Assembly (NCBI GenBank): GCA_020050435.1
Contig: JAGVKQ010000017.1
Coordinates: 1-64,000, forward strand
Direction: 5' to 3'
DNA from: Candidatus Caenarcanales bacterium
GTDB lineage: Bacteria > Cyanobacteriota > Vampirovibrionia > 2-02-FULL-35-15
DNA length: 64,000 nt
The translations under genes and the position numbers were made by a program. Numbering within the stretch: position 1 is the stretch's first letter; every line of letters begins with the position of its first letter. Below, one piece after another: positions 1,600-53,897 of the stretch. Below the pieces are notes generated by a model. That model saw nothing but the letters and a program-made list of their open reading frames with translations, did not search any database and was not told where the DNA came from.

Positions 1600-1679
1600 A
1601 TGGAGTTTCAGACAAACTGAAACTTCCTTTTGCTATGCTTTCCGCTTGCTCGCATTTGCCGAGTAAATCGGACAAATGC
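1600..1679 (+). repeat. Two-hairpin intergenic element, copy A
   Basis: Hairpin 1 (1602-1627) pairs GTTTCAG with CTGAAAC around an ACAAA loop. Hairpin 2 (1652-1679) pairs GCATTTG with CAAATGC, then carries a one-base A bulge, then CCGA with TCGG around a GTAAA loop. The same layout recurs at five other places in the window with different but complementary arms. It sits just upstream of purA, in opposite orientation to that gene. Confidence 0.85.
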
Positions 1680-1781
1680 TTAAATCGTGAGTACATTATT
1701 TAGACCTGTTAAATCCAAACCTAGAAATCATAGCAAATTAGGGAGCAGAAGTCAGGGGAATTAATTTCTTAAACTTGTATA

Positions 1782-1910
1782 TTAGATTTTATCTTTACTT
1801 TCTTGGTCTACTTTATCAAAACCTTTAAGAAGGTTATCCACATATTTAGAAAGTAAAAAAAACATCAATAAATATACAGGTATAGCAATTAACTCAATAT
1901 CAACTTTCAT
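1782..1910 (-). CDS. Small membrane protein, 42 residues
   Basis: The frame begins MKVDIELIAIPVYLLMFFLL, has one membrane-spanning stretch (about residues 6-20), and ends in a charged tail (DKVDQESKDKI). Its ATG overlaps the 3' end of the upstream 75-residue membrane-protein gene by 11 bases. It is preceded by GGTAAGGAAAT, a good ribosome binding site. The overlap and shared strand suggest translational coupling. The family is not recognised. Evidence for coding is the site, the overlap and the coherent membrane topology. Confidence 0.6.
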   Translation of the reverse strand: MKVDIELIAIPVYLLMFFLLSKYVDNLLKGFDKVDQESKDKI

Positions 1911-2127
1911 ATTTCCTTACCTTTAAAACTTTATATCCTCTGATTATACACCACATACCAATTTTAGCTGTAATTATAGCTAGTAAAACATAAAGAATAA
2001 AAGCACCTACTCCACACTCTTTTACTAAGGCAATTGATTCATAAAAAATTCTTCCAGCTGGAGCTAGCATAGCAAATCCAGATATTTTTAAAACCTCAGA
2101 TCTATATTCAATATGTTTATCCATCAC
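1900..2127 (-). CDS. Small membrane protein, 75 residues
   Basis: The protein starts MMDKHIEYRSEVLKISG. It has a moderately hydrophobic stretch (about 15-35), then a clear membrane helix (about 41-62, GVGAFILYVLLAIITAKIGM), and a basic tail. No family is recognised. It overlaps the start of a second small membrane protein by 11 bases, so the two probably act or are made together. A perfect TGTAACCC-A-GGGTTACA inverted repeat lies 34 bases upstream of the start and is a candidate operator. Confidence 0.6.
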   Translation of the reverse strand: MMDKHIEYRSEVLKISGFAMLAPAGRIFYESIALVKECGVGAFILYVLLAIITAKIGMWCIIRGYKVLKVRKYES

Positions 2128-2160
2128 AATAAAAATACTATCAAAATAAATTTTGCAAAA

Positions 2161-2177
2161 TGTAACCCAGGGTTACA
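2161..2177. promoter_or_regulatory. Inverted repeat, candidate operator
   Basis: TGTAACCC-A-GGGTTACA is a perfect 17-base inverted repeat, 34 bases upstream of the small membrane-protein start at 2127. The same outer arms with the same 5-base centre (TGTAAC-N5-GTTACA) occur at 52090-52106, upstream of an ORF6N protein. TTTGCAAA precedes both sites. This suggests a shared binding site for a dimeric protein, though a short hairpin is also possible. Confidence 0.5.
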
Positions 2178-2300
2178 ACAAAGATAAAAAAATCCTTAAT
2201 TTTCAATTCTCAATTTTCAATTGTTCTCTCCCCATTTAACCAATTCTTAACTAAACCTCACTCTCAAGGTCAATTCTTTTCTTAACCCTACTTTGGTTTA

Positions 2301-2384
2301 TTTATGGAGCTTCAGACAAGCTGAAGCTTCCTTGTATCAATCCAAGAAGCTTGATCGGATTTGCCGAGTAAATCGGACAAATCC
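2301..2384 (+). repeat. Two-hairpin intergenic element, copy B
   Basis: Hairpin 1 (2306-2331) pairs AGCTTCAG with CTGAAGCT around ACAAG. Hairpin 2 (2357-2384) pairs GGATTTG with CAAATCC, has the bulged A, then CCGA/TCGG around GTAAA. TTTAT precedes hairpin 1, as in other copies. It lies about 146 bases upstream of the 2531 gene, in the same orientation. Confidence 0.88.
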
Positions 2385-2530
2385 TTCTATGACAAGGGCA
2401 TTTTTAAAATTTAACCAACCTTTAACGCAACTCTTTCTTTAACCTGCCTTTGTACAAAGTGAAGGTAGTAGTTATTACTAACTTTATTTATAAAAGATAA
2501 GTAAAAGTAATTTAAGGAAAAGAATATACA

Positions 2531-4306
2531 ATGTCGGCCGGAGCAACAATATTAAATCTGACTGCCAAATATACACCTAGTGCTATATCTGCAGCAAAAA
2601 GTATTTTAGCTAAATTTGCTCCTAACGCAGCATCTGCCATTGAAACTACTGCTGAAGTAATAAGTGCCACAGTAGCTGATGGTGGATACGCTAAATCTCT
2701 TTTAAATGCTAAAGAATTAATTGGTTCCACTGGAAATAGTTTTGGATCTCAACTTTTAGTATTAAGCAATGAACTGGGAGATAGCTATCCAGAACTAGCT
2801 TCAAAGCTTGATAAATATGCAAGCAAACTTATGATAGATAGAGGAATTCTTTCAGAAGATGAAATGAAATTTATTCATGATCAATTACTTCAAATTTCTA
2901 ATGGGGAAGAAGCTCATCAACAAAACACTACTGTTACAGCCAAAGACACTAAACAATCCCTAATAGAAGAAACGCTAAATGATAACATTCGAATTATTAC
3001 AACCTCTAAAGATGGTGCAAAAAAAGAAAAGGCTATAGAGACTCTGGCAAGACTTGTAAAAAATGGGGATTTAACTGAAGCTCAAATTGATGAAGCAATT
3101 TTATCAGTAGAAGTAAAAATACCTACAAATCACGAAACAGAAGTTCATACAAATGAATTCTCTACAACAGAAACCACTAATCATTTAGAAAGTGACTCTA
3201 CCACAGCCGTAGAAAGTGAAGTTATTAATAAAACAGACATTGCTGATATCCCATTTGATTTACTTGAAAAAGCATTTACCTCCATATTAGGAAATGATGC
3301 TGTGGGCTTAATAAAAGTATTACGTACTTCTGAAAATCTTGAGGCTTTAGGAAATAATTTTAATGCTGTTATGGAACATCAACCTAATTTTTTAGAGGAG
3401 TTATTTCCAATAATTAATGGTGAAAATGTTCCTAATAAGAATTTTTTAACTACTGCTGGAAATCTTTTTTATGTTGCTGGAAATCCTATGGAGCCAAATG
3501 ACGTAAACAATTTACACATGATTTACAACAGAAGATTTGCTAACCCTTCCGAAACAACTCCATCCCTTACTCCCGAAGCTCCTGGAGCTGATTCTCCTGA
3601 AACAGCAAGAACCGATCAACCTGAAAAGCCCTTAACACAAGCAGATTTACAAGCAGCATATAAAAAAGGACAAGAAGAAACTGCTAGAACTTCCAACAAC
3701 ACTACTGGAGAAATTAAATTAGATTCAGGCGATATTCATCATGATGTAGGTGTATTAGAGCGATCTGTACTTGAAATGCTTACTAAAGAGCTATCCAGAC
3801 CAGATACAATTTATGGTGCCCTTTATGATATGGCTCGCAAAGACGGTATGCCAGAATCCTCTGATAAAGCAGGAATACAAAAATATCTTCAGGAGCAGCT
3901 TTTTGGTAAGGAAAATAATGCACATGAATTTACCAATGCAGTAACTCAGTATCTTGGGTATTTAAAGGGAACTAGAACAGAAAAACCAAATATAGAAGCT
4001 TTAAATACCATGCAAAAGAGAGCATATCATGGTATGACATGGGGACTTTGGATAGCAAAATATATTCCCTCTGGTGTTCAAAGATTTTTAGGAAAAATGA
4101 AATTAATTACTCCTATAGCAAATGGTTTTCTTGGAAGGATTCCAGTAGTAGGACACTTCCTCGTATGGGGATTATCAATGTTTAATGAATATGGTGTTGG
4201 AACTCTTATGATGCATTCAGACAATGTTCAAAATATGACTAATGCCGCTGACAAATATAAACCTCAACCATCTACCACACAACCAGCAGCAAGTAATGCA
4301 GCTTAA
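2531..4306 (+). CDS. Large orphan protein, 591 residues
   Basis: No family is recognised. The N-terminus is Ala/Ser-rich without a charged signal peptide (MSAGATILNLTAKYTPSAIS). A helical, acidic region follows. Thr/Glu-rich linkers occupy roughly residues 190-230 and 340-400. The C-terminal ~90 residues are more hydrophobic (GMTWGLWIAKYIPSG, IPVVGHFLVWGLSMFNEYGVG) and could insert into or contact a membrane. The last residues are a Pro/Thr/Ala tail. It ends just before a strong ribosome binding site for a 22-codon frame. The unstructured start and lack of a Sec signal would fit non-Sec export or a cytosolic scaffold; neither is shown. Confidence 0.8.
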   Translation: MSAGATILNLTAKYTPSAISAAKSILAKFAPNAASAIETTAEVISATVADGGYAKSLLNAKELIGSTGNSFGSQLLVLSNELGDSYPELASKLDKYASKLMIDRGILSEDEMKFIHDQLLQISNGEEAHQQNTTVTAKDTKQSLIEETLNDNIRIITTSKDGAKKEKAIETLARLVKNGDLTEAQIDEAILSVEVKIPTNHETEVHTNEFSTTETTNHLESDSTTAVESEVINKTDIADIPFDLLEKAFTSILGNDAVGLIKVLRTSENLEALGNNFNAVMEHQPNFLEELFPIINGENVPNKNFLTTAGNLFYVAGNPMEPNDVNNLHMIYNRRFANPSETTPSLTPEAPGADSPETARTDQPEKPLTQADLQAAYKKGQEETARTSNNTTGEIKLDSGDIHHDVGVLERSVLEMLTKELSRPDTIYGALYDMARKDGMPESSDKAGIQKYLQEQLFGKENNAHEFTNAVTQYLGYLKGTRTEKPNIEALNTMQKRAYHGMTWGLWIAKYIPSGVQRFLGKMKLITPIANGFLGRIPVVGHFLVWGLSMFNEYGVGTLMMHSDNVQNMTNAADKYKPQPSTTQPAASNAA

Positions 4307-4321
4307 AAAGGAGAAGAAAAA

Positions 4322-4390
4322 ATGAGAGCACTTAAATTAATGATTCTAGACCTTATGAGAATTTATCCAGGAATGTTTATGTTTTTATAA
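4322..4390 (+). CDS. Possible 22-residue peptide
   Basis: An AAAAAGGAG site sits directly after the upstream stop and about six bases before this ATG. The frame reads MRALKLMILDLMRIYPGMFM, ends FL, and stops at a TAA whose last two bases are the first two of hairpin 1 of element copy C. It is short, amphipathic or hydrophobic, and Met-rich. The strong site argues for translation. The length leaves it uncertain whether this is a peptide gene or a leftover. Confidence 0.4.
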   Translation: MRALKLMILDLMRIYPGMFMFL

Positions 4391-4466
4391 GCTCAAGACA
4401 AGCTTGAGCTTACAGTGATCAATCTCATTTGTCGGATCGGATTCGCCGAGTAAATCGGACGAATCC
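4389..4466 (+). repeat. Two-hairpin intergenic element, copy C
   Basis: Hairpin 1 (4389-4411) pairs AAGCTCAAG with CTTGAGCTT around ACAAG. Hairpin 2 (4439-4466) pairs GGATTCG with CGAATCC, then the bulged A, then CCGA/TCGG around GTAAA. It lies between convergent genes, so here it could also work as a transcription stop. Confidence 0.88.
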
Positions 4467-4497
4467 TTTCTTTGCCAATGCATTATGCACAACATCT

Positions 4498-5877
4498 CTA
4501 CTCCCCTGGCACTGTCATATTTTTAATTCTTATAGAAGGTCCACCTACACCTACAGGCAAACCACTTTGACCACATTTTCCACAACCACCAGATTCATCC
4601 CAGTACATATCATTTCCTATAGCTTCTATATCTGACAATGTTTGAAAAACATTTCCCGAAAGGTTTACATCTTTTACAGGCTCAGCCAATTTTCCATCTC
4701 TAATCATTCTGGATTCACCACTAGCAAATGTAAACATCTCTCCATTAGTCTGTCCACCTAACCAATTTCCTGCCCATATACCAAGTTTTACATCTGAGAT
4801 CAAATCATTTACTGTACTCTTACCTAGTTCAATCCATGTATTTGTCATTCTTACAATAGGTGGAAATCTATAATCCAAACATCTAGCATTTCCTGTCGGG
4901 GTTTCATTCATTTTTCCAGCTGTTTCTCTGCTGTGCAATCTTCCTACAAGTATTCCTTCTTTTATAAGATAAGTGTTTTGTGCTGGTGTCCCTTCATCAT
5001 CAAAAGAAAAAGATCCTCTGTGATCAGGCACATGTGCACCATCTAAAATATTTAAAAATGGCTCACCAAACTTTTTTCCAAACTTCATAAATTCTTGCAT
5101 CTTTGGATTTTCAAAAATAAAATCACCTTCAGATAGATGCCCAAAAGCTTCATGAACAAAGAGCCCTGTAAGAATAGGGTCTATCACTACTGTATAATTT
5201 CCTGACTTAGGTGGTTTTAATGTTAATTGATGTACTGATCTTTTTCCAGTATCTAAGATTCTTTGATCAAGATTTTCCATCTCTTCAAAGCCTTTTCTAG
5301 AACCAAGAGTTTCAGATGCTACCTGGACTGAGCTGCCTTCTTTAGCTGTAGCAGAAAATCTTGCTTCCATATCTACCCAGCCATGTTCTAAATATGCCCC
5401 TTCAGAATTTAAAAAAGTTACTTTTTGTGTCTTTTCAAAATAGCGACTAGTTGTAGTGGTCACTTTATCTGAAGTGGAGAGAAGAAGCGAATTATAGTGC
5501 TTAAATAAATCCACCTTATAATCCAGAGTTAAAGTTCTAGGGTCTTTTCCTGCTAGCAGAATAGAACATTTTTTTTCTATGGGATTGACTAGTGACAATT
5601 TTGATTTTTCATTTATTGCAGCACCTAAAAATCTAGATTGATTAATAGCCTCTTCAATATATTTTTCCAAAGAAGTCAAATCGTTAAAAGAACAAAAGCC
5701 CCATGCCCCTTTATACAAACTTCTAACATAGCCGCCATGAGATTGCGATTCACTTAAATTATCCAGAGACTTACCAAGATACCTAATATTTGTAGTTTCA
5801 TTTTCTTCAAATCTAATTTCAAGGTAATCAACCTGTTTTTTATACTTTTCTAACAGGCCATTTAGTTTGTCGCGCAT
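4498..5877 (-). CDS. tldD: TldD/PmbA-family metallopeptidase (TldD-like)
   Basis: TldD, with its partner TldE/PmbA, forms a zinc protease that trims modified or unstructured peptides. The zinc motif HEAFGH is at residues 242-247. LSEGDF follows it, and the C-terminal half holds the usual SFDDEGTPA, GNARC and NLSGN-like blocks. The length of 459 residues fits the family. The start is an ATG with AAGGAG seven bases upstream. No TldE/PmbA partner is adjacent; if the two-subunit model holds, it is encoded elsewhere. The final residues include a GGCGKCGQSGLPVGVGGP stretch typical of TldD ends. Confidence 0.93.
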   Translation of the reverse strand: MRDKLNGLLEKYKKQVDYLEIRFEENETTNIRYLGKSLDNLSESQSHGGYVRSLYKGAWGFCSFNDLTSLEKYIEEAINQSRFLGAAINEKSKLSLVNPIEKKCSILLAGKDPRTLTLDYKVDLFKHYNSLLLSTSDKVTTTTSRYFEKTQKVTFLNSEGAYLEHGWVDMEARFSATAKEGSSVQVASETLGSRKGFEEMENLDQRILDTGKRSVHQLTLKPPKSGNYTVVIDPILTGLFVHEAFGHLSEGDFIFENPKMQEFMKFGKKFGEPFLNILDGAHVPDHRGSFSFDDEGTPAQNTYLIKEGILVGRLHSRETAGKMNETPTGNARCLDYRFPPIVRMTNTWIELGKSTVNDLISDVKLGIWAGNWLGGQTNGEMFTFASGESRMIRDGKLAEPVKDVNLSGNVFQTLSDIEAIGNDMYWDESGGCGKCGQSGLPVGVGGPSIRIKNMTVPGE

Positions 5878-6132
5878 TTAAATCTCCTTAATAGAATTGT
5901 ATCAATCATTCATTCAAGCAACAGATCATCAAAGATAATGTTCCCCTTAGGTAAATTTTCTTTAAACATTGTAAATTTTAAAGATTTTTCAAGTAAATGA
6001 TTGGTATTTCAACCAATTAACGTAGAGCATAGGTTTATTAGAATCAGAGCTGGGAATGAAATAATTATGAATGGGGTTTTGAGAGCTTAACCAATTCATA
6101 AATTATTTGTTTTAGCCTTTTACGTAATCAAT

Positions 6133-8802
6133 ATGAGACCAGAAGAAAAACAATTTAAAATCAACAAACAAGAAGAAGATGAATTAAAATCAACTCTTAT
6201 AAATAAACTTCTTGAATTGCAAGGAAGTTCTTTAAATGCTAAAGAACAAATTGTTACTTTGGTTAATTTTGTTCAATCAATTCTTGAAATTGACACGATT
6301 GCTGTTTATGCTAACTTTGCAAGTGAACAATTAAATCTAATAAATTCAAAATCTGGCGCCAAACAACATGCAATGCTTGGATATATGCTTGAAAGCATTT
6401 CAGAACAAGTAGATTTCAAAGAACAAAGATATTTTAATAGTTTAATTCCATTGTCAGAGTTGAATATCAAAAAAGAACTCTCACCAGCAGATCAACATAC
6501 TTACCTTTATCCTATAGTTTCTCCTCATGCAAAACAAATTTACGGCATTGTTCTAATTACAAATCCAAAGGGATTAAACACTCCAGAAAGAAATAAGATT
6601 TTTCTTTTTTTATTAAACTATATGACAAAAATCATAGAAGAATCTGATCTTACTTCACAGGTACATGAAAAAGATCACAGATTAAAACTTTTATCTAAAC
6701 TTTCAAATTCATTGAAGGGTATTCTAAAGGCAGAAAAAGCAGTTGAAATTGTTATTAAAGAAATTTACAACTTCTTAAAAATAGAAGATATTTATTTCAT
6801 ACGATGGATTCCTCAGGAAAAAAGACTTGAAGTAAACCAAGAAATAACAGCAGATAAAAAACACTCCCTAAAAGGATTTTCACACATAGCCAGCAATAAA
6901 AATCCTCTCATAAAACTTTTATATAAAAATCAATTATTAACATATAAGAACAAAAATATAAGAAGACTTAGCAAAGTCTTTCTAGGAAAAGAAACACCTT
7001 CAATCTTTTTTTTAATTCCAGTTTTAATCAGAAGTGAACTTCTTGGAATTATTGCTTGTTCCAGTACTTCTCCCTTCACGGAAGCCAGCAGTGAAGACTA
7101 CAGAATCACTCAGGATATAGCAGGACAATTAGCTGTTATTTTAAACCAAGCAAACTTATATGAAGAAAGCTTATCCACAGCTCAAAGAGAATTTTTATTA
7201 AACTCCATTACCACAATGATAAGAGACACCCTTGAAGTAGATGGTGTTCTAGAAAAAACTGCAAGAGAAGTCGGTCAAGTTTTCGGAGTGAATGCCTGTG
7301 GTGCTTTTATACATAAAGATATTGAAGATAGTAAATTTTCACAAAGAGCAATTTGGGCAACATCTGATGAATTTAAAAATAAACTTATGCGACTTCCTCT
7401 GGACTCCAATGATGAAACAGGACCAGAATCTCAACTACTACCGGATCCTATCACTCAAAGCGTTGCAATCTCAATGACAAGTTCTCATAATTTTGGTAAA
7501 GCACAAACTATTATTGATGAAATAAATTGTAAGTCTTACCTTGCCTGTTCATTGAATAAGGGAAATAAAACTATAGGTGTTTTAGTACTTGCTCATTTTG
7601 AACAACATAGAATTTGGACCAATTCTGAAATCCAGCTCTTAGAAGCGATTACAGATCAGGTAGAAATGGCTCTTTCTCAAGCCGAGCTTTACCAGCACGT
7701 TCAACAAACAGAAAGACAAATGAATTTGCTCCACCAAGTAAGCTCAGCCATTAGAGATACTTTAAATATTTCTACAGTTATGGCAAGAACTGCTCATGAC
7801 CTTGGCGAAATTTTATCTTCTAGCAGATGCTTTATAAGAAGACTTAGAAGTGCCGATCCTTTAATAGTGTCAGCCACTGAACAAGAGTATTTAAATAAAG
7901 ACCAAGACATAGATAAAGCTGCAGACTTAATTCTTGAATTTGAAAAAGAATGGCTTGAGTCTATAAATAAGTTACCTGAAGTAGAAAGAGCAAATGCAAT
8001 TCTCAACATCACAGATATTGAAGAAAAATATAAAGATGTTTCCGGACCAATGAAATCTATTTTAGAAGCTATTAAAATTAAAAGTTTTTTAGGTGTTCCA
8101 CTTGTAGCAGCAGGTCAAGTCATAGGCTCACTTTGTATTCATCAATGTGAAAGAAAAAGAAGATTTACAAAGAGTGAGGTTGAATTTGCAAAGAGAGTAG
8201 CATCTGAAGCATCAGTTGCTGTATTGAATGCTGATTTATTTGCCAGAGTAGAACATCAAGCTCAAAGAGACAGCCTGACAGAGCTTTACAATCATGCTTA
8301 CTTTCAGACAGCACTTCATCATGAAGCAGAACGTGCAAAAAGAACTGGCTCTGATCTTTCAGTAATTATGATTGATTTAGATTATTTAAAACAAATTAAT
8401 GATAAGTTTGGTCACAAAGGAGGAGATGAAGCAATTACTCTTGTCTCTGGAAAACTTCTACAGTGTTTACGACAAATGGATGTTGTAGCCAGATATGGTG
8501 GTGATGAGTTTGCTATTTTACTTCCTGAAACCAACCTTGAAATTGCTGAAACTATAGCTAAAAGAATATTAGAAACATTAAATAAATCTATTCATTCACA
8601 ATGGGGTCCACTGAGTGCCAGTGTAGGAGTTTCGGGAACTCCACATGAAGAAAGAAATAAAGATGCACTTTTAAAAGCCGCTGATGATGTAATGTATGTC
8701 TCTAAACGTGAGGGTAGAAATCGCGTAACATCATCTACAAAACTTGATGAGTTAGGACCAATTGAGAAGAAGCCTATTAGCAGGGGCGAAGCACAGCAAT
8801 AA
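6133..8802 (+). CDS. Multi-GAF diguanylate cyclase
   Basis: A soluble sensor that should make cyclic di-GMP from two GTP. About four GAF-like domains (roughly residues 20-165, 180-340, 350-520 and 530-720) precede a GGDEF domain (about 727-875). The active-site loop GGDEF is intact at 789-793. The RxxD product-inhibition site (RQMD, 780-783) sits five residues before it, so both catalysis and feedback are likely. No membrane segment or EAL domain is visible. The start has no obvious ribosome binding site. The ligand of the GAF domains cannot be read from sequence. Confidence 0.92.
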   Translation: MRPEEKQFKINKQEEDELKSTLINKLLELQGSSLNAKEQIVTLVNFVQSILEIDTIAVYANFASEQLNLINSKSGAKQHAMLGYMLESISEQVDFKEQRYFNSLIPLSELNIKKELSPADQHTYLYPIVSPHAKQIYGIVLITNPKGLNTPERNKIFLFLLNYMTKIIEESDLTSQVHEKDHRLKLLSKLSNSLKGILKAEKAVEIVIKEIYNFLKIEDIYFIRWIPQEKRLEVNQEITADKKHSLKGFSHIASNKNPLIKLLYKNQLLTYKNKNIRRLSKVFLGKETPSIFFLIPVLIRSELLGIIACSSTSPFTEASSEDYRITQDIAGQLAVILNQANLYEESLSTAQREFLLNSITTMIRDTLEVDGVLEKTAREVGQVFGVNACGAFIHKDIEDSKFSQRAIWATSDEFKNKLMRLPLDSNDETGPESQLLPDPITQSVAISMTSSHNFGKAQTIIDEINCKSYLACSLNKGNKTIGVLVLAHFEQHRIWTNSEIQLLEAITDQVEMALSQAELYQHVQQTERQMNLLHQVSSAIRDTLNISTVMARTAHDLGEILSSSRCFIRRLRSADPLIVSATEQEYLNKDQDIDKAADLILEFEKEWLESINKLPEVERANAILNITDIEEKYKDVSGPMKSILEAIKIKSFLGVPLVAAGQVIGSLCIHQCERKRRFTKSEVEFAKRVASEASVAVLNADLFARVEHQAQRDSLTELYNHAYFQTALHHEAERAKRTGSDLSVIMIDLDYLKQINDKFGHKGGDEAITLVSGKLLQCLRQMDVVARYGGDEFAILLPETNLEIAETIAKRILETLNKSIHSQWGPLSASVGVSGTPHEERNKDALLKAADDVMYVSKREGRNRVTSSTKLDELGPIEKKPISRGEAQQ

Positions 8803-8927
8803 GAACGTGTGGGAGTATCGGCATAGGCAATAAATACTACTAAAAGATAAAATGTTTTTAATCTTATTGAAGGTTAAGAAAGTTAATTGCTATAAGATTA
8901 GAGATACTATTTTTTAGAGTCTTAACA

Positions 8928-10715
8928 ATGAAAAATGCAGGCATACAGTTTTTATTAAAAGCTTATCCGAATAATATTTCGCATTCCGACTTTAGATATC
9001 GTCAGGAAAGAAGAAAATTAAGCGGAGAAAAATCTCCTTCTGGCAGAGCAGAAGAAGTAGAGGATTATTTAAATATTCTTCAAAGGACTCATAATTCTCA
9101 TAATGAAAAGCCATGGGTGGTAAAAAATGTAAGGAGATACTATCATGAAGTGCATGTTATTAAAGAGCTACCAAGTAGTTATATAGAAACACAAAGAAGA
9201 TTAGCAGCCGAACAAGGACATGGAAATTTAGAAATTACCAATGAACTAAAAGGTAGACTTAAAGAAACCGTTACTTCCGATCAAAAAGCAAGTTTAAATT
9301 TATGGCTAGATTACCTAACGTCACCTGATACTAGTCATTATCCTATGTGGGTTAAGTACTGGGTATTTAACAGTATGGTTAAACTATCTGCTTTTGACAT
9401 TGAAAAGCAAATTTTTGGGGATAGAAGTAAAAATACGGTTACACCTTTTCCAGAACTAAATAGAGAAGCACTGGCCTGTGTAATAGATACTGTTATTAAA
9501 CTAGTAGAAGAAAATGATTTAAGTAAAGATGTTAGACTTATAAGTTTTAAGAAACTCTATGCAAATGAAATTAGTAAAATCACAGTAATTAAAGAAAGTG
9601 ATTTAGAAAATACTAAAGGGGAATGGATAAAATATCCCCAGGGTTCTGATCACATGAAGCTAGTAAAAGCTCTTCAGGGGAAAAATACAGGTTGGTGTAC
9701 TGCAGCAGAATCTACTGCACAAACACATCTTCAAGGTGGAGATTTTTATGTTTACTATTCATATAATTCTTCAGGAGAGCCTGCATTTCCAAGAGCAGCC
9801 ATTCGAATGGAAAATGAAGATCTAGTTGAGGTAAGAGGAATAGGAATAGGGCAAAATTTAGATCCATATATAAGTGATGTAGTAAATGAAAAATTAAAAG
9901 AGTTTCCAGATGGAGAAAGATATAAGAAAAAATCAGCAGATATGAAAAGACTAACTCAGTTAGTTGAAAAAACAAAAGAAGGTAATGATTTAAATATAGA
10001 AGAGCTTAAGTTTTTATATGAAATCGATTCAAAGATAAAAGGTTTCGGCTATGAAAAAGATCCTAGAATTGAAGAAATTATAGAGAAAAGAGATAAAAAA
10101 GAAGATTTAGCAAAAATTTTAAAATGCCCAAAAGAACAAATAGCTATAAATGAAGAGGAAATAAATGACAATACTATTGTGGCTTACAATACTATTTTGG
10201 CTTTAAATTATCCGCTTAAATCATTACCAGAAGGGCTAACACATATCAGTGGAGATTTAATTCTTATTCAGAGTAGGCTTACATCACTACCAAAGGGACT
10301 AACCTATGTTGGTGGAGACCTGACTCTTATGAGTAGTCAGATTACATCTCTGCCAGAGGGACTAATACATATTGGTGGGGATTTTGAGCTTTGTCATAGT
10401 CAGATTACATCTCTGCCAGGGGGACTAACCTATATTGGTGGGAATTTTGATCTTAGACATAAAAGTAATAAGATTACATCTCTACCAGAAGGACTTACCT
10501 ATGTTGGTGGGAATTTAGATCTTAGAACTAGTCAGATTACATCTCTACCAGAAGGACTTACCTATGTTGGTGGGAATTTAGATCTTGGAAATATTACATC
10601 ATTACCAGAGAGACTAACACATGTTGGTGGGAATTTATATCTTAGTAAGAGTCTAATTACGTCACTTCCGAAAAATATAAATCAAATAGTAAGAGGAAAG
10701 GTAATTTACATTTAA
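8928..10715 (+). CDS. LRR-like repeat protein with a conserved GWCTA-type central domain
   Basis: The 595-residue protein has three parts. The N-terminal ~220 residues are basic and helical. The central domain (about 220-345) contains NTGWCTAAES, GDFYVYYS and EVRGIGIGQNLD. I recall similar blocks in uncharacterised proteins of poorly cultured bacteria, but I cannot assign an activity. The C-terminal part carries seven near-identical 19-23-residue repeats with the core SLPEGLTYVGGNLDL, a short leucine-rich-repeat pattern likely forming a solenoid for binding. No signal peptide is visible. The repeats are also strong at DNA level, so unit number may change by recombination. Confidence 0.75.
   Translation: MKNAGIQFLLKAYPNNISHSDFRYRQERRKLSGEKSPSGRAEEVEDYLNILQRTHNSHNEKPWVVKNVRRYYHEVHVIKELPSSYIETQRRLAAEQGHGNLEITNELKGRLKETVTSDQKASLNLWLDYLTSPDTSHYPMWVKYWVFNSMVKLSAFDIEKQIFGDRSKNTVTPFPELNREALACVIDTVIKLVEENDLSKDVRLISFKKLYANEISKITVIKESDLENTKGEWIKYPQGSDHMKLVKALQGKNTGWCTAAESTAQTHLQGGDFYVYYSYNSSGEPAFPRAAIRMENEDLVEVRGIGIGQNLDPYISDVVNEKLKEFPDGERYKKKSADMKRLTQLVEKTKEGNDLNIEELKFLYEIDSKIKGFGYEKDPRIEEIIEKRDKKEDLAKILKCPKEQIAINEEEINDNTIVAYNTILALNYPLKSLPEGLTHISGDLILIQSRLTSLPKGLTYVGGDLTLMSSQITSLPEGLIHIGGDFELCHSQITSLPGGLTYIGGNFDLRHKSNKITSLPEGLTYVGGNLDLRTSQITSLPEGLTYVGGNLDLGNITSLPERLTHVGGNLYLSKSLITSLPKNINQIVRGKVIYI
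10221..10685 (+). repeat. Tandem 63-bp coding repeats
   Basis: Seven units in a row have lengths 63, 63, 63, 69, 63, 57 and 63 bases, followed by a partial unit from 10662. Each encodes a copy of SLPEGLTYVGGNLDL plus a variable turn. The 69- and 57-base units differ by whole codons, so the frame is kept. The last units are most alike, which suggests recent duplication. Confidence 0.9.
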
Positions 10716-10762
10716 GCTATAGAAAAGTCTAATATTAGGCACGTAGGCACATATTTTATTGC

Positions 10763-10768
10763 TATAAT
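10763..10768 (+). promoter_or_regulatory. -10 hexamer of mnmE
   Basis: TATAAT ends eight bases before the mnmE ATG, which leaves almost no 5' leader and no room for a ribosome binding site. Confidence 0.55.
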
Positions 10769-10776
10769 CTTCTTGA

Positions 10777-12135: not shown

Positions 12136-12137
12136 CA

Positions 12138-12308
12138 TCAGTCCTTTAAATTGATTCCATCATCAATCATTGCCTGAGCAACATCTTTAGAATCAAACTT
12201 TAACTTTCCTTCTTTATACTGTTTCTTTAATTTCTCAAGTTCTTCTTTATCTAAGCTTTTACTTTTAGCCTTAATTGACTTATTACTAGTTTTTTTCTTT
12301 TTTTTCAT
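12138..12308 (-). CDS. Small basic protein, FlgM-like C-terminus
   Basis: A 56-residue frame is convergent with mnmE, whose stop is two bases away. It starts with a Lys-rich stretch (MKKKKKTSNKS). It continues with a helical segment, EELEKLKKQYKEGKLKFD, followed by SKDVAQAMIDDG. The pattern LK-x(3-5)-G-x-(3)-D-S-x-x-VA resembles the C-terminal sigma-28-binding part of FlgM anti-sigma factors, but it is shorter than typical FlgM. No flagellar gene lies in the window, so the role is open. The assignment is tentative. Confidence 0.45.
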   Translation of the reverse strand: MKKKKKTSNKSIKAKSKSLDKEELEKLKKQYKEGKLKFDSKDVAQAMIDDGINLKD

Positions 12309-42509: not shown

Positions 42510-42703
42510 TAATTGCCTCCAAAAATATTTCTAATATCCTGAGAACCAGGCTATACAATATGATATACGATTGAATTGATTTATTATTCCATTTGTAAAT
42601 TTAGTACTCTTAATATACTTATCTTGTATAACGCTTTACCGAGGGGATATTTTTATTTCAAAGCTAGAAATTATTTAAAAAGTATTATTCTTATTAAACT
42701 TTA

Positions 42704-43906: not shown

Positions 43907-44077
43907 AAGAATTAATGAAAATTATAACAACCATTCTTTAAATTATTTTCTTAAACTTGTATATTTAGCAGCAATATAGTTATCTTTTATAAATATTAAG
44001 CACATAGAAACACCCCTACTTTAAAAAGTTAAGCCTGGGTAAATCTTCTTTACCGCTTAGATCCTAAAGGAGTTACT

Positions 44078-45232: not shown

Positions 45233-45256
45233 TATAGAACTATTCAAGTAATCTCT

Positions 45257-46249: not shown

Positions 46250-46442
46250 TAAAACTAATAATATTTTTTTGTTTGCATAATCCTATTTTACCAGTATTTT
46301 GACTCTAAAAGTCCTAATTCTTTTTATGACAATATTAAAATTTATAGCGAAAAACAAGCAAACCATTCACACAAACACATCCTTATAGGTTATTATTACT
46401 AGTAGAAAAAACCCTTAGTTATTAGAGAAATTTAATGATTCT

Positions 46443-47981
46443 ATGTGGGAATTAATTTCAAAACTTTTTGATACTTCTGACTTCCCTGCCAGGTGGCATT
46501 GTGGACACTGGACTAGCCTGCATGGTTGGATTCACATAATTTCAGATTTTGCTATTTGGGGGGCATATGCAGCAATTCCAATTATACTTTATTATTTTAT
46601 TTCTAAAAAAAGAGATGTCCCATTTTCATTTATATTTATTCTTTTTGGTGGATTTATCCTTTCTTGTGGTACGGGACATTTAGTAGAAGCAATAATATTT
46701 TGGCATCCATGGTATAGATTTTCAGCATTAATAAAATTTGCTACTGCAGTAATTTCATGGGCGACAATATTTGCTTTAATTCCAGTCATTCCAAAAGCAC
46801 TTGAGCTAAAAAGTCCTTTAGAGCTTGAAAAAATTGTTAAAGAAAGAACCAGTGAATTAGAAAGGATAAATGAGAATTTGGCCATTGAAGTTGTTCAAAG
46901 AAAAGAAGCTGAGGAAGAACAAGTTCAATTAGCTGCACTTGTAAATTCATCATATGATGCAATCATAAGAAAAGATTTAAACAGTGTAATTCAAAGCTGG
47001 AATTATGGGGCTGAAAAAATATTTGGTTACACAGCAAAAGAAATTATAGGAAAATCAATAACCGTACTAATACCACCTGACTTGCTAAATGAAGAAGTAG
47101 ATATCATGAGGAAAGTAAAATCAGGAGGGCCTATAGAAACATTTGAAAGTAAGAGACTAAGAAAAGATGGTTCTACATTTGATGCTTCAATAACAATTTC
47201 ACCGATAAATGATACTAATGGAAATATTATTGGTGCTTCTAAAATTGCCAGAGACATTACAAAACAAAAACAGATGAAGAAAGATCTGTCCGAAGCAATG
47301 GAAAAAGTAAAACAATCAAATCAAGAATTAGAAATGTTTGCATATGTTGCTTCCCATGACTTACAAGAACCTTTAAGAATGGTGGCAAGTTTTACAAAAT
47401 TACTTGAAGAAAAATATAAAGATAAACTGGATGAAAAGGCAAATAAATACATTGCTTTTTCTGTAAATGGTGCAAAAAGGATGCAAGAGTTAATTAATAG
47501 TCTTCTGGATTATTCCCGAATACAAAGAGCTGATACAGAACCAGAAGAGTTAGATTGTAATGAGATAGTAAATGAAGTTATATTAAATATGTCAAATATA
47601 AAAGAGACAGGAGTAAAAATAAATTATTTAGAACTACCTAAAGTTTATTCTAATAAGATCCAATTAAGTCAAGTTTTCCAAAACCTTATAAGCAATGCTA
47701 TTAAATATAGAAGTTCAAGACCTTTAGTAATAGACATCTCAGCTAAAAAAGAAAAGGATAAATGGTTATTTGCTATAAAAGACAATGGCATTGGATTTGA
47801 TCAAGAGCATGCAGAAAGAATCTTTGAATTATTTGAAAGATTACATTCAACTAAAAGTTATGAGGGAACAGGAATGGGGCTAGCAATTTGTAAAAAAATT
47901 ATAGAAAAACAAGGGGGGGGGATTTGGGCAGAGTCTGAAGCAGATAAAGGTAGTACCTTTTACTTTACTTTACCAGCATAA
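46443..47981 (+). CDS. Ethylene-receptor-like sensor histidine kinase
   Basis: 512 residues. The membrane domain (1-122) resembles the ethylene-binding domain of ETR1. Asp35, Tyr42, Ile45, Pro46, Ile72, Cys75 and His79 all match ETR1 Asp25, Tyr32, Ile35, Pro36, Ile62, Cys65 and His69 with a constant offset of ten. That set includes the Cu(I) ligands. A PAS domain (~160-275) and a HisKA domain with His305 in SHDLQEP follow. The HATPase has NLISNAIKYRS, DNGIGF and GTGMGLAICKKI. Two response regulators follow, the first only five bases later. Whether the ligand is ethylene is an inference. Confidence 0.88.
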   Translation: MWELISKLFDTSDFPARWHCGHWTSLHGWIHIISDFAIWGAYAAIPIILYYFISKKRDVPFSFIFILFGGFILSCGTGHLVEAIIFWHPWYRFSALIKFATAVISWATIFALIPVIPKALELKSPLELEKIVKERTSELERINENLAIEVVQRKEAEEEQVQLAALVNSSYDAIIRKDLNSVIQSWNYGAEKIFGYTAKEIIGKSITVLIPPDLLNEEVDIMRKVKSGGPIETFESKRLRKDGSTFDASITISPINDTNGNIIGASKIARDITKQKQMKKDLSEAMEKVKQSNQELEMFAYVASHDLQEPLRMVASFTKLLEEKYKDKLDEKANKYIAFSVNGAKRMQELINSLLDYSRIQRADTEPEELDCNEIVNEVILNMSNIKETGVKINYLELPKVYSNKIQLSQVFQNLISNAIKYRSSRPLVIDISAKKEKDKWLFAIKDNGIGFDQEHAERIFELFERLHSTKSYEGTGMGLAICKKIIEKQGGGIWAESEADKGSTFYFTLPA

Positions 47982-47986
47982 AATTT

Positions 47987-48430
47987 ATGAAAGAAAAAAT
48001 AATTGAAATTTTACTCGTAGAAGACAATGATGGAGATGTTGAACTTGTCTTGGAAGCTTTTAAAAGGTCAAAAATTAAAAATAACATTACAAATGTAGGA
48101 AATGGAATTGAAGCTATTTCTTACCTTCGCAAAGAAGGGAAATATAAAGATTTAAATAGGCCTGATCTGGTAATACTTGATTTAAACCTGCCTATAAAAG
48201 ATGGTAGATGGGTACTTACTCAGATTAAATCTAATGAAGATCTTAATGATATTCCAGTAATAATAATGACTTCATCAAATTCTCAAAAAGATATTTTAAA
48301 TTCATATAAATTAAATGCAAATTGTTACATAACTAAACCACTTGATTTGGAAGAGTTTTGGAAAATTATGAGTTCAATTGAAGCTTTTTGGTTAAGCACA
48401 GTCAAATTACCTAGTTATTCTCAACAGTAA
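47987..48430 (+). CDS. Response regulator, Rcp1-like
   Basis: 147 residues, receiver domain only. The acidic pair sits in LLVEDNDGDVE, the phosphoacceptor is Asp65 in VILDLNLPIKDG, and the conserved Lys is in YITKPLD. Its ATG is five bases after the kinase stop, so it is probably the direct partner. The ENDG-type start and the MTSSNSQKDI block are like the small Rcp1 regulators that pair with phytochrome-like kinases. There is no output domain, so it likely acts through protein contact. Confidence 0.95.
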   Translation: MKEKIIEILLVEDNDGDVELVLEAFKRSKIKNNITNVGNGIEAISYLRKEGKYKDLNRPDLVILDLNLPIKDGRWVLTQIKSNEDLNDIPVIIMTSSNSQKDILNSYKLNANCYITKPLDLEEFWKIMSSIEAFWLSTVKLPSYSQQ

Positions 48431-48606
48431 ACAACATCTTAAGAATAAATTGTTAAAATTTTTAAACTCCGAATTATTAATATGATCTAAAGAATAGTTT
48501 TTCATATACAATTTCACTAATTAATAAGTTGCTATGGGTATCCCTAGAAATATAAGTAGAGCTTGATACTTGTATATTATTGGTAAAATTTAAATGAGGA
48601 CTATTT

Positions 48607-49008
48607 ATGAATGGAAATATCAGAGCTTTACTTGTAGAAGATAATGATGGTGATGCATTTTTGCTAGAAGAAATTATTTCAGAGAAAAAAGAATCCAGTC
48701 ATATAGAATTAACTCGAGCTGAGTCAGTATCTCAAGGAATAAGTCAACTTTCTCAAAATAAATTTGATGTTGTTTTATTAGATCTTGGGTTGCCAGATGC
48801 TAATGGAGTTACTTCCATAAAAAAAATTAAAGAGCATGCAAATGAAGCACCTATAATTATAATTACTGGCTCAACTTTAAAAAGGGATGAATTAAGAGAT
48901 TGTATTTCATCCACTGATGAATTTTGTATAAAGGGATTTTTAGATTCTGAATCATTAACTTACACTATTGAATCAGCTATTAGAAATCATAAAATTGAAA
49001 ACAAATAA
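48607..49008 (+). CDS. Response regulator, receiver only
   Basis: 133 residues, with LLVEDNDGDAFLLEEI at the start, phosphoacceptor Asp59 in VVLLDLGLPDANG, and a Lys in EFCIKGFLD. GAGG lies upstream, and a TTGATA/TAAAAT pair (15-base spacing) suggests a separate promoter. It is 176 bases from the first regulator. It ends three bases before the argG stop on the opposite strand. It is probably an alternative output or a sink for the same kinase; this is inferred from position. Confidence 0.93.
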   Translation: MNGNIRALLVEDNDGDAFLLEEIISEKKESSHIELTRAESVSQGISQLSQNKFDVVLLDLGLPDANGVTSIKKIKEHANEAPIIIITGSTLKRDELRDCISSTDEFCIKGFLDSESLTYTIESAIRNHKIENK

Positions 49009-49011
49009 GAA

Positions 49012-50352
<1,341 letters not shown>

Positions 50353-50388
50353 TTAGCCGTTTTAATTATATCGCATAGGCAAAATAAA

Positions 50389-50467
50389 GGATCGATCCAA
50401 TTTATTTGGTCGATCCATGCAAAGCACAGAATTGAAAGATTTCAGCTTGTCTGAAATCCCACAAATA
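50389..50467 (-). repeat. Two-hairpin intergenic element, copy D
   Basis: Read on the minus strand: hairpin 1 (50458-50438) pairs GATTTCAG with CTGAAATC around ACAAG. Hairpin 2 (50416-50389) pairs GGATCGA with TCGATCC, carries the bulged A, then CCAA with TTGG around ATAAA. The spacer contains CTGTGCTTT, shared with copy F. It lies upstream of argG, in the argG direction. Confidence 0.88.
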
Positions 50468-50473
50468 AATATA

Positions 50474-51184
50474 CTACCTTTTAAATTCTATGCAGAGATA
50501 TAGGTCCTTTTTAAATAGTTCCTTTTGTTTAGAAAACCCAGCCTCATTAGCAATATCTCTAATAACAGAAACACTTTCAGGATAATCAAAATTATAGACA
50601 TGATCACAAACATAATTTTTGTCTTCAACAGTTAATGCACTCCAGTTTTTATAAACACCAGATTTATACACATTAAACCACTCTTCTCTACTTCCTTTTT
50701 CATTTATTATGTCTACTAAAATAAAACAACCTTCTTCTTCCAAAGAATCAAAACATTTTTTAAAAAATCTTTTCTTATCATCTAAAGATAAATGATGAAG
50801 CGCAAAGCTAGACCAAATTAAATCATATTTATTTAAAGCTGGGGACTCTAAAAATTCTTTAGATAAATCTTTTACTAAGAATTCTTTTTTACATTTCACT
50901 ATATCCAAGTTTGTTTTTGCTTCTTCTAAAGATTCTTTAGATAAATCATAAGCGGTATAAGATTCCACCTTAGAATTTTCTAATACCTGTGTCATAAAAA
51001 ATGCATTTCCCGAACCAAGATCTAATAGTTTAAAAGGTTTATTTGATAATTCTTTTTCAATATAGTTTTTTAAAATCCCATACATTTCACTATGAAACAT
51101 ATAATTATTCTTCACTACCTTAGAATAAACATCCAAGTTGCTAAAATAATCTTCTACATTCTTAAATAAGGGAAAACTATGCAT
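50474..51184 (-). CDS. SAM-dependent methyltransferase
   Basis: 236 residues. The SAM motif I is LLDLGSGNAFFMTQVL, motif II is YTAYDLSKESL, and motif IV is YDLIWSSFALHHL. This is the generic Methyltransf_25/12 pattern. TATAAT ends exactly six bases before the ATG, so the message appears leaderless. It lies next to tRNA-Gly(CCC), which is divergent from it. The substrate cannot be told from sequence. Confidence 0.88.
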   Translation of the reverse strand: MHSFPLFKNVEDYFSNLDVYSKVVKNNYMFHSEMYGILKNYIEKELSNKPFKLLDLGSGNAFFMTQVLENSKVESYTAYDLSKESLEEAKTNLDIVKCKKEFLVKDLSKEFLESPALNKYDLIWSSFALHHLSLDDKKRFFKKCFDSLEEEGCFILVDIINEKGSREEWFNVYKSGVYKNWSALTVEDKNYVCDHVYNFDYPESVSVIRDIANEAGFSKQKELFKKDLYLCIEFKR

Positions 51185-51190
51185 AAAAAT

Positions 51191-51196
51191 ATTATA
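51191..51196 (-). promoter_or_regulatory. -10 hexamer of the methyltransferase gene
   Basis: TATAAT (minus strand) followed by ATTTTT and then the ATG at 51184: six bases between hexamer and start. Confidence 0.6.
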
Positions 51197-51282
51197 ACTC
51201 CTAATATTTAGGGTAGAATATTAGAGAATACTGAAAATTTAGTCTTTCTTGAAACTTGCAACTTTATCCTTGCAACTTACGT

Positions 51283-51353
51283 GCGGGTGTAGTTTAGTGG
51301 TAAAACGAAAGCTTCCCAAGCTTTAGTTGAGGGTTCGATTCCCTTCACCCGCT
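51283..51353 (+). tRNA. tRNA-Gly(CCC)
   Basis: Acceptor GCGGGTG/CACCCGC, anticodon stem AAAGC/GCTTT around TTCCCAA (anticodon CCC), and T arm GAGGG-TTCGATT-CCCTT. CCA is not encoded; a run of T follows and then two-hairpin copy E. The leader (CTTGAAACT...CTTGCAACT) is like that of tRNA-Gly(UCC) at 27806. Confidence 0.95.
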
Positions 51354-51356
51354 TTT

Positions 51357-51440
51357 TTTTATGGGGCTTCAAACAAGTTGAAGCCTCCTTTAGGTAAAAG
51401 TAACAATCTATCGGATCCGCCGAGTAAATCGGACGGATCC
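51357..51440 (+). repeat. Two-hairpin intergenic element, copy E
   Basis: Hairpin 1 (51363-51388) pairs GGCTTCAA with TTGAAGCC around ACAAG. Hairpin 2 (51413-51440) pairs GGATCCG with CGGATCC, then the bulged A, then CCGA/TCGG around GTAAA. It begins right after the T-run of tRNA-Gly(CCC). Confidence 0.88.
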
Positions 51441-51523
51441 TGTTTACTGACAATACGAAGCTGGGCAGACCCACTTTTTTATTTCACCCTCTACTTGCTC
51501 TTCCCCTCAATCTTTTTAATATA

Positions 51524-52030
51524 CTAAACCTGAAATCCTATCTTCTTTTTAGGCTTTATTGGTTCTTCCACTAATTGTTTTATAGCATCAAATACAACTT
51601 GAAATTGTTTATCATATTTAGATTCCATTTCTTCTATCTTTTTTCTTAGATCTTTGTGACTTTCTATCATTTCTCTAAGCTTAGTAAAAGTACGCATGAT
51701 TTGAATATTTACCATAATGGCTCTTTCACTGTTAAGTACACTAGAAAGCATGGATACTCCTTGTTCTGTGAAAACATGCGGTAAAGTCGGATAAAATTTT
51801 AGTTTCTTAAGGTTATCACAAATTGTGATAACCTCATCTCGCTCAGACTTTGTAAGTTGAAACATAAAATCCTTCGGGAAACGTTTTTTATTTCTCTTTA
51901 CTGCCTGGTTTAAAACTCTTGTTTCTACATCATACAATTCAGCTAAATCAGTATCAATCATCACTTTTTTACCTCTAATAAAGTAAATTTTATTTTCAAT
52001 TTTTTCTGCTGGGATTAGTGCACTTGCCAT
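51524..52030 (-). CDS. ORF6N-domain DNA-binding protein
   Basis: 168 residues from the ATG at 52030, with GGTGA before it; a GTG nine bases earlier is an alternative start. The ORF6N domain is clear: KIYFIRGKKVMIDTDLAELY, VETRVLNQAVKRNKKRFPKD, FMFQLT and FTEQGVSMLSSVLNSERA. A coiled coil and a basic tail (KPKKKIGFQV) follow. ORF6N proteins occur in phages and as chromosomal regulators. No other phage gene is nearby. The TGTAAC-type inverted repeat lies about 60 bases upstream and may be its own operator. Confidence 0.88.
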   Translation of the reverse strand: MASALIPAEKIENKIYFIRGKKVMIDTDLAELYDVETRVLNQAVKRNKKRFPKDFMFQLTKSERDEVITICDNLKKLKFYPTLPHVFTEQGVSMLSSVLNSERAIMVNIQIMRTFTKLREMIESHKDLRKKIEEMESKYDKQFQVVFDAIKQLVEEPIKPKKKIGFQV

Positions 52031-52089
52031 AAATATCACCGTTTTAATTTGAATGATATTTTACTTCTTAAATTTAATATTTGCAAACA

Positions 52090-52106
52090 TGTAACTCTCG
52101 GTTACA
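52090..52106. promoter_or_regulatory. Inverted repeat before the ORF6N gene
   Basis: TGTAAC-TCTCG-GTTACA, with a further GGTTACATA half-site near 52121. TTTGCAAAC precedes it, as TTTGCAAAA precedes the matching 17-base repeat at 2161. Candidate operator for the ORF6N protein or a shared regulator. Confidence 0.5.
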
Positions 52107-52132
52107 TTGAATGATACCTACGGTTACATAAT

Positions 52133-52999
52133 TCAACTTCTAACTTTTCTACATTCTATTAATTGTGTGGGTTGGTTTGAAATATAGTGATCCCAATATC
52201 CTGGAGAATAAGCAGACGTATCATCAGAAAGAACAAGATCATGCCATTTAATATCATCAAATCCTGCTTTTCTTAGAGCACTTTCATAAGTTTCTTTACT
52301 CCACTGAAAAATTTGAAATTTACATGGTTGTAAAATATGCTTTTTATCATAATCAGTAATTGTTAAAATTGACCCTTCTTCTAGATTTCCGCTTGCACTG
52401 ATGTCACAAAAATATTTTTCACCATTAAAAAGTGGGTTATCAGGATTAGAGTTTAGGGCAAAAAATGGTGAGCCTGGTTTTAAATTCTTCGCAATGTTTC
52501 TACAAAGTTTTTCTAGCATATTTTTATCTTTTGCATAGTGAAGAAGAAAGCCTGCAAAAGCAACATCAGCATGAAGTATCCCCCTCATTCTGGATAGATC
52601 TTCATTCATAAGAACAATTCTTGATTTTCTTTTACACACACGAATATTTTCTTTTGCAATTTCTAACTGATATTCTGATTCATCTATAGCAGCGACACAA
52701 TCTGCACCCTTATCTGCAAATAATTTAGCCCATGAAGCATCTCCTGTAGCTAAGTCGTGAATAAATAGATTTTCAAGATTGGGAAGGCGTTTTATTACCG
52801 TAGGTACAAAAATACATTTTCTATCATCATGATTGTTGCTTACTTCTTTGTAATGATATCCAGCAGAATTGAATTGATATCTTCTATCCAAAAACTGGGT
52901 TTCTAAAAGTGGTGCCGTAAAAGGATTTGAGCTTAATCTACCAATTCCTCCATAAGAAAAAGATAAGTTTGGATTAAAAAGAAAATTCATATTTTTCAT
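52133..52999 (-). CDS. Putative SAM-dependent methyltransferase
   Basis: 288 residues. The SAM-like motif is IHDLATGDASWAKLFADKGA, followed by CVAAIDESEYQLEIAKENI and a DVAFAGFLLHYA block, as in class I methyltransferases. The first 50 residues are a loose, aromatic-rich extension (FNPNLSFSYGGIGRL). The Gly-rich loop is ATGD instead of GxGxG, so activity is plausible but not certain. TATAAT lies nine bases before the ATG. It is monocistronic. Confidence 0.78.
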   Translation of the reverse strand: MKNMNFLFNPNLSFSYGGIGRLSSNPFTAPLLETQFLDRRYQFNSAGYHYKEVSNNHDDRKCIFVPTVIKRLPNLENLFIHDLATGDASWAKLFADKGADCVAAIDESEYQLEIAKENIRVCKRKSRIVLMNEDLSRMRGILHADVAFAGFLLHYAKDKNMLEKLCRNIAKNLKPGSPFFALNSNPDNPLFNGEKYFCDISASGNLEEGSILTITDYDKKHILQPCKFQIFQWSKETYESALRKAGFDDIKWHDLVLSDDTSAYSPGYWDHYISNQPTQLIECRKVRS

Positions 53000-53165
53000 A
53001 GATAATTAATTATATACAAAAGTATATTATTTTTCTAAATTAACCTCTTAAACATGTATTTGACATTCAAACAATACAAAAGTACTATGTCTTTTTTACC
53101 AACCTTTAACCATTCTTTGATATAAATCTTTCATTGATTATTCAATTTTGAAAAAGGAGCAGTTA

Positions 53166-53759
53166 ATGGATATGAATGTAACGGGCGCATCAAGGTCAGC
53201 AGGAGCATCACAAGGTACACAAAGTTCATCTGGTGGAGGTGGAGCATCTGGACAAATAGCTCAACTTCAGCAAAGAAAAGCAACTATTCAGGGACAAATA
53301 GCACAAAAGGAAGCATATGCAAAAGAATGTTATAACGCTCAAGCTGGTCCCGGACAACTGAATAGTTCTGGTGGTTCTTCTGGAGGATTAGATAAAGCAA
53401 AAGTAGAGACTGGCAAAATAATGGCGAACTGGGCAATGGGACCCGGTGCTGGTGCTGGAGAACAAGGAGTAGATCAATTAAAAGCTGAACTTGCTAGTAT
53501 AGATGAACAAATAGCTAGTTTAGAGAGCCAACAACAAGCTGAACAACAGCAACAAAATGATGGAAGCAGCAATAGCGAAAATCAATCTAAGGTAAAAGAA
53601 CTAGAGGATCAAGTTTCTAGTTTAAGAACTGAGGAAAGCCAGGCATTAAAACGAAATGATCTCCCTAAAGCACAAGAGATTGATATTAAAATAGACACTC
53701 TTCAAAGTAGAATTAATGCTATGAGAGGCGGCAATAAAGTACCTGCTGCTGCACAATAA
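53166..53759 (+). CDS. Gln/Ser/Gly-rich coiled-coil protein
   Basis: 197 residues from the ATG at 53166 (MDMNVTGASRSAGASQ), chosen because AAAAAGGAG ends six bases before. A Ser/Gly-rich start and middle linker separate two coiled coils (QIAQLQQRKATIQGQIAQKE and LKAELASIDEQIASLESQQQ). A third, KELEDQVSSLRTEESQAL, lies near the end. No signal peptide or known family. The sequence ACCAACCTTTAAC, found also before the 2531 gene, lies 56 bases upstream. Element copy F follows the stop. It resembles other unstructured orphan proteins here in composition. Confidence 0.75.
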   Translation: MDMNVTGASRSAGASQGTQSSSGGGGASGQIAQLQQRKATIQGQIAQKEAYAKECYNAQAGPGQLNSSGGSSGGLDKAKVETGKIMANWAMGPGAGAGEQGVDQLKAELASIDEQIASLESQQQAEQQQQNDGSSNSENQSKVKELEDQVSSLRTEESQALKRNDLPKAQEIDIKIDTLQSRINAMRGGNKVPAAAQ

Positions 53760-53782
53760 ATTCCATCTTACTTGCAATTAAA

Positions 53783-53897
53783 GGATCGATCCAATTTCCT
53801 GCCCTCCAAAGATTATCGAAGGAGGGATTTGGTCGATCCGTACAAATGTAAAGCACAGCTATAAGAGAGTTCAGCTTGTCTGAACTCCAACAAATAA
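53783..53897 (-). repeat. Two-hairpin intergenic element, copy F, with an extended loop
   Basis: Minus strand: hairpin 1 (53887-53867) pairs GAGTTCAG with CTGAACTC around ACAAG. Hairpin 2 (53839-53783) keeps GGATCGA/TCGATCC, the bulged A and CCAA/TTGG, but its loop carries an extra hairpin (53802-53826, CCCTCC/GGAGGG). It ends next to the -10 of the cyclase gene. Confidence 0.85.

Follow-up and report, generated by a model that had tools for sequence, protein, structure and literature searches.

A stretch of 64,000 nucleotides from a Candidatus Caenarcanales bacterium (hereafter, the window) contains six similar repeats, each with two hairpins, and raises the question of whether these repeats are structured RNAs, signals placed at the ends of genes, or copies of a mobile DNA. 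We consider it likely that they are copies of a miniature, non-autonomous mobile element, with hairpins that are important as DNA and a mode of insertion that produces long target duplications of variable length.

Layout and distribution of the two-hairpin element

Re-inspection of the sequence showed the six copies at the positions given by the initial annotation, with the hairpins, loops, bulge and complementary arms that it had described (Table 1). The element spans ca. 105 nt and consists of a T-rich left edge, hairpin 1 (HP1), a linker of ~26 nt, hairpin 2 (HP2) and a tail of ~20 nt. HP1 has a 7-bp stem and an ACAAG or ACAAA loop, and HP2 has a 7-bp outer stem, one bulged A, an inner stem that reads CCGA/TCGG or CCAA/TTGG, and an RTAAA loop. 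The outer stem of HP2 is GCATTTG, GGATTTG, GGATTCG, GGATCCG or GGATCGA, always facing its exact complement, and copy F contains an extra hairpin inside the HP2 loop; a similar insertion occurs at G000:C1:68384. The intergenic placement also held, with all six copies located between long ORFs. Copy A is immediately upstream of a purA-like ORF (254-1582, minus strand) and antisense to it; the best named matches of this PurA are 59–64% identical and come mostly from cyanobacteria, Gastranaerophilales among them, which suggests a host from a cyanobacterial lineage that probably does not photosynthesise. Copy E starts 3 nt past the end of a tRNA gene (51283-51353).

The source genome, of 2.49 Mb, contains 33 occurrences of a 14-nt core of the element, CCRARTAAATYGGA, and none of its reversed control, so the element is not a product of chance. 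As had been proposed initially, we built a covariance model, from 31 copies, and ran it on the source genome, where it retrieved 62 copies, exactly six of them in the window. It also retrieved copies from relatives: the ten other genomes of the family contain 19 to 112 each, and all 11 family genomes, which represent eight genera, were positive, with roughly 700 copies in total. A scan of the source genome for HP1 alone yielded many chance matches. The element was absent from the 29 genomes examined from other families of the same class, as well as from the 239 non-family genomes of a phylum-wide sample of 244. An origin from phages or plasmids was considered and rejected, as copy A has no blastn match in phage and plasmid collections; likewise, three pattern matches in viral contigs lacked the rest of the element. 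Copies can also occur in tandem, and an array at L284:15650-16000 (G005:C13) contains three elements head-to-tail plus a partial fourth, with a unit of ~118 bp, and adjoins a tRNA gene.

We also found a second subfamily, of ~190 bp, which has HP2 in common with the element but a different 5′ part. Judged by inspection and not against a null, its copies have ends resembling terminal inverted repeats (GTTTTTGCCTACC / GGCTAGGCAGTAAC) and are flanked by direct repeats of 8–14 bp (for instance TAAAGTTC, CTAATTTA, CATTATTC and GGTTAACATTTCTA). This subfamily has probably been active recently, because there are several near-identical copies in G005, and, since it also has HP2, this hairpin seems to be a module on which more than one element draws.

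Table 1. Location of the element copies, flanking repeats and related sequences discussed in the text
Feature	Location	Strand	HP1	HP2	Details
Copy A	window 1596..1699	+	1605-1623	1652-1679	
Copy B	window 2300..2404	+	2309-2327	2357-2384	
Copy C	window 4382..4486	+	4391-4409	4439-4466	
Copy D	window 50368..50466	-	50439-50457	50389-50416	
Copy E	window 51357..51461	+	51365-51385	51413-51440	
Copy F	window 53763..53895	-	53868-53886	53783-53839	HP2 includes the hairpin inserted in its loop
Copy B flank repeat, left half	window 2271..2295				CAATTCTTTTCTTAACCCTACTTTG; degenerate direct repeat of ~25 bp, individually weak
Copy B flank repeat, right half	window 2428..2452				CAACTCTTTCTTTAACCTGCCTTTG; individually weak
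Direct repeat	L239:7391				41 bp, 98%
Direct repeat	L267:7902				36 bp, 94%
Direct repeat	L066				18/18
Direct repeat	C12:96159				19 bp
Direct repeat	L259:7513				22 bp
~190-bp subfamily (G005/G009)	L276:12474				
~190-bp subfamily (G005/G009)	L293:7190				
~190-bp subfamily (G005/G009)	L288:14936				
~190-bp subfamily (G005/G009)	L254:17427				
~190-bp subfamily (G000)	C5:157156				
~190-bp subfamily (G000)	C26:27819				
TGTAAC-type palindrome	window 2161-2177				TGTAACCCAGGGTTACA
TGTAAC-type palindrome	window 52090-52106				TGTAACTCTCGGTTACA

Covariation and the level at which pairing is kept

The initial annotation took the compensatory changes between the arms as a sign of selection on structure. 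The covariation is real: double-sided changes affect 17 of the 21 pairs among 31 copies, whose covariation score of 0.528 (0.228 for shuffles) was reached in none of 500 shuffles. Likewise, in an unsupervised mutual-information scan of 112 copies from several genera, ranks 1 to 15 were all occupied by stem pairs, a ranking less affected than the pairing percentages, which are inflated because this alignment was fitted to the model. The conclusion drawn from it was, however, too strong, because near-perfect Watson-Crick arms such as these can also be equalised by template switching. Strand switching between the arms of inverted repeats equalises the arms and inverts the loops (PMC8604942), and template switching can yield compensatory changes of several bases without a wobble intermediate (PMC8794818). 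A few copies have an inverted HP1 loop, CTTGT instead of ACAAG. Strand switching probably contributes to the covariation, which can be explained without selection on an RNA.

The same process would tend to remove the bulge and would not conserve the loops. The bulged base is A in 111 of the 112 copies, and identity between copies reaches 0.89–0.91 in loops and bulge, versus 0.44–0.60 in the linkers. This invariance of the bulge, together with the conservation of the loops, points to some constraint and, because of this difference in identity, recognition of the structure or of the loops has probably been selected too; the better preservation of loops and bulge also hints that each copy is used in place.

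By transition, a G-C pair becomes G·T or A·C with equal ease, and an RNA tolerates G·T, but not A·C, on its own strand. Among ~2,000 cells from HP2 and the inner seven pairs of HP1, we counted 13 G·T and 18 A·C mismatches, with no strand preference, whereas the T and acceptor stems of tRNAs from the same sequences had 41 G·T and eight A·C (Fisher p=1.8e-4 versus the element; this control is rough, with a simple stem rule and 70 unassigned cells). Given this differing balance, it is seemingly in the DNA that pairing is maintained, unless one arm is copied from the other.

These data bear on one of the readings offered initially, that of a structured RNA, in which the repeats would be a dispersed small RNA or a 5′-leader regulator with stems selected at the RNA level. 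Its favourable evidence includes the strong covariation, the conserved loops and the loop extensions, but G·T and A·C mismatches are equally rare, and a search of the window with Rfam 15 retrieved two tRNAs and no other match.

Empty sites, target duplications and gene edges

Genomes G005 and G009 belong to the same genus, with 78% identity at the locus that was compared. In 21 cases, the sequences on the two sides of an element could be traced in the sister species, and 17 of these were sites without the element; the other four correspond to two shared positions seen from both sides, with elements that differ in their stems or are truncated. G005 and G009 carry different versions of the element between one divergent gene pair, a site that is empty in G000 and G007 and that is occupied by other, unrelated sequences with palindromes in G001 and G010.

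Using a fixed offset, the search for target duplications yielded nothing convincing, and we therefore looked for direct repeats of variable length. Local alignment of the left and right flanks of 88 copies produced six scores of at least 18, versus 0.5 expected from permuted pairs, and BLAST comparison of the 400-nt flanks of 134 copies produced four of at least 30, versus 0.11 expected. The repeats have variable lengths of 18, 19, 22, 36, 41, ~70 and 81 bp, and in the L239, L267, L066, C12 and L259 examples (Table 1) the left repeat ends no more than ~5 nt from the left edge of the element. Most copies have no recognisable target duplication; the degenerate repeat around copy B is probably an old one. 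At C20:3272 (G000), an intact tRNA-Ser(CGA) gene is on one side of the element and a second copy of that gene, without its first nucleotides, is on the other (L026:1386-1626), as expected if the element had inserted inside the tRNA gene with a duplication of ~80 bp; an old tandem duplication of tRNA-Ser is less likely. Together, insertion polymorphism and target duplications favour a mobile palindromic element, which was among the possibilities raised initially.

Against this reading, besides the scarcity of recognisable duplications and the failed search for a mobilising gene (see below), no pair of dispersed copies exceeds 82% identity, which is odd for an active element, and the copies within a genome are as divergent as those from different genera. 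The combination of sites not common to sister species with diverged copies may reflect long retention, mutagenic copying or a diverse source pool.

With genes positioned by mechanical ORF calls, orientation with respect to genes differed between genera. Of 87 copies in genus g6, 72 turn their HP1 side towards the start of the adjacent gene. Among the best 64, 32 are at a coding start (versus 18% of intergenic TTTT sites), and many copies end a few nt before an ATG. Among 58 copies in the source genome, the HP1 edge abuts 13 coding starts, 13 coding stops and eight tRNA ends. The arrangement in g6 adds to the evidence for a structured RNA, because the reverse strand could there serve as a leader that stops just short of the start codon, in which HP1 might bridge a purine-rich site to the AUG. 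Such a hairpin-bridged ribosome site, or mobile 5′ leader, is attractive in g6, but it is weakened by the mixed orientation in the source genome, where 32 of the left neighbours are forward and 26 reverse; since, besides, sites are not conserved in sister species, we think it unlikely that the repeats are structured RNAs.

The initial annotation also considered a 3′-end element, and the repeats could correspondingly be intrinsic terminators or other 3′-end elements behind genes. In the source genome, T-rich sequence often comes after HP1 and HP2, and, of the 58 copies, 13 are placed directly behind a stop codon and five behind the 3′ end of a tRNA. However, g6 copies are mainly upstream of genes, the wobble asymmetry of an RNA is missing, and a terminator would not need loops, bulge and linker length to be so well conserved, which together make this explanation very improbable. 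We infer instead that a target duplication that restores the edge would account for the placement at gene edges, without a regulatory role. Two other explanations of the placement were discarded: a fixed CAT target, because many g6 copies come after CAT but most of those in the source genome do not, and a replication-strand preference, because two contigs that differ in the sign of their GC skew showed no consistent bias.

For the mobile element that we favour, we envisage that the hairpins would act as folded DNA, either single-stranded or as a cruciform, recognised by a protein. Insertion would proceed via a step, staggered or strand-switching, in which target sequence of variable length is copied, such that a gene hit at its edge would stay intact. 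Strand switching within the hairpins would keep the arms equal and, at times, invert the HP1 loop, adding to the covariation.

Known mobile systems and candidate mobilising genes

Like REP and REPIN sequences, mobilised by TnpA-REP/RAYT proteins, the element is a short intergenic palindrome, present in tens to hundreds of copies, with a folded DNA hairpin, and in REP hairpins a bulge can be essential (PMC8266576). However, REP palindromes are preceded by a conserved tetranucleotide, mostly GTAG, and there is no GTAG-type motif at the foot of our hairpins, the group consensus being T-rich before HP1 and TTGATC before HP2. It also differs in having two different hairpins per unit and target duplications, and in that RAYT genes are paired with another palindrome. 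The element resembles the MITEs of DDE transposons in being small, non-coding and dispersed, with target duplications, and its ~190-bp sister subfamily is MITE-like in its ends and its short duplications. Inspection of the left and right edge consensuses of the main family, of which the right one is variable, revealed no terminal inverted repeats. Unlike in MITEs, the length of the duplication ranges from 18 to 81 bp instead of being fixed, and no parent transposon was found. Long direct repeats of variable length, of 8–514 bp, also characterise IS1634/IS1549 (PMC2266710). These are, unlike our element, full insertion sequences. Members of IS200/IS605 have subterminal hairpins with unpaired bases and a fixed orientation. 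The element resembles these and their derivatives in such hairpins, but theirs are similar at both ends and their insertion makes no target duplication. In all, the element is somewhat similar to REP elements and MITEs in how it works but lacks the features that define them.

No mobilising gene was found among the candidates checked, which were RAYT, IS200 TnpA, IS1634-type transposase and reverse transcriptase. The initial annotation had suggested looking for a TnpA/RAYT gene; RAYT genes are indeed present in several family genomes, but they adjoin another palindrome and not the element. None of the eight RAYT loci checked contained the element according to our model, and most were adjoined by a TGTAACC..GGTTACA-type palindrome, which probably constitutes the true REP family in these genomes; the element is thus not a REP in the strict RAYT sense. 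Two palindromes of this type occur in the window (Table 1), and TGTAAC-type palindromes are just upstream of an ORF (51524-52039, minus strand) whose product resembles an ORF6N-type phage-related protein.

A REP- or IS200/IS605-type element, moved as single strand by a Y1 or RAYT transposase, would agree with the presence of RAYT genes and with hairpins bearing a required bulge, which are typical of single-stranded transposition (PMC8266576). Nevertheless, besides the palindromes at the RAYT loci, the two hairpins do not resemble each other, such transposition is not expected to leave long target duplications, and the Y1 transposase family PF01797 was not detected in five of the 11 family genomes; RAYT-type proteins are, for their part, commoner than this search shows. 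We thus regard this alternative as decidedly improbable. Further candidates were also discarded. The IS200 copy in G005 has different hairpins of its own, and the IS1634-type transposase is patchy, being intact in one of 11 genomes, with flanks that do not match. In ~1.5 Mb of G009 and G005, we found no composite in which HP1 and HP2 flank a gene. Separately, an ORF resembling the start of an IS1634-type transposase appears to be interrupted by an IS200-like transposase gene in G006:C29 (L095:1076-1447 and 1399-1890).

A SINE-like retroposon, formed from an RNA copy by target-primed reverse transcription, would account for an A-rich end (the reverse strand ends in TATAAAA) adjoining the duplicated target, and for the variability of both duplication length and far end. 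However, reverse transcriptase PF00078 was found in none of the 11 family genomes and the stems have no RNA-type wobble asymmetry, leaving this origin scarcely conceivable.

The element is abundant in all 11 genomes examined from the family, and we found no description of it in the literature searched. It combines DNA hairpins like those of REPs with target duplications that are long and variable in length, a feature that had no proposed mechanism even in IS1634/IS1549 (PMC2266710). As a tentative and rather doubtful extension, it could be a family-wide mobile DNA that lacks a transposase or reverse transcriptase of its own, spreads by means of its two hairpins, copying tens of target bases and thereby sparing the genes at whose edges it inserts, and is then retained by the host for its structure. 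More generally, mobile DNA can display covariation of the textbook kind, and the count of G·T versus A·C mismatches offers a simple test to distinguish stems conserved at the DNA level from those conserved at the RNA level.
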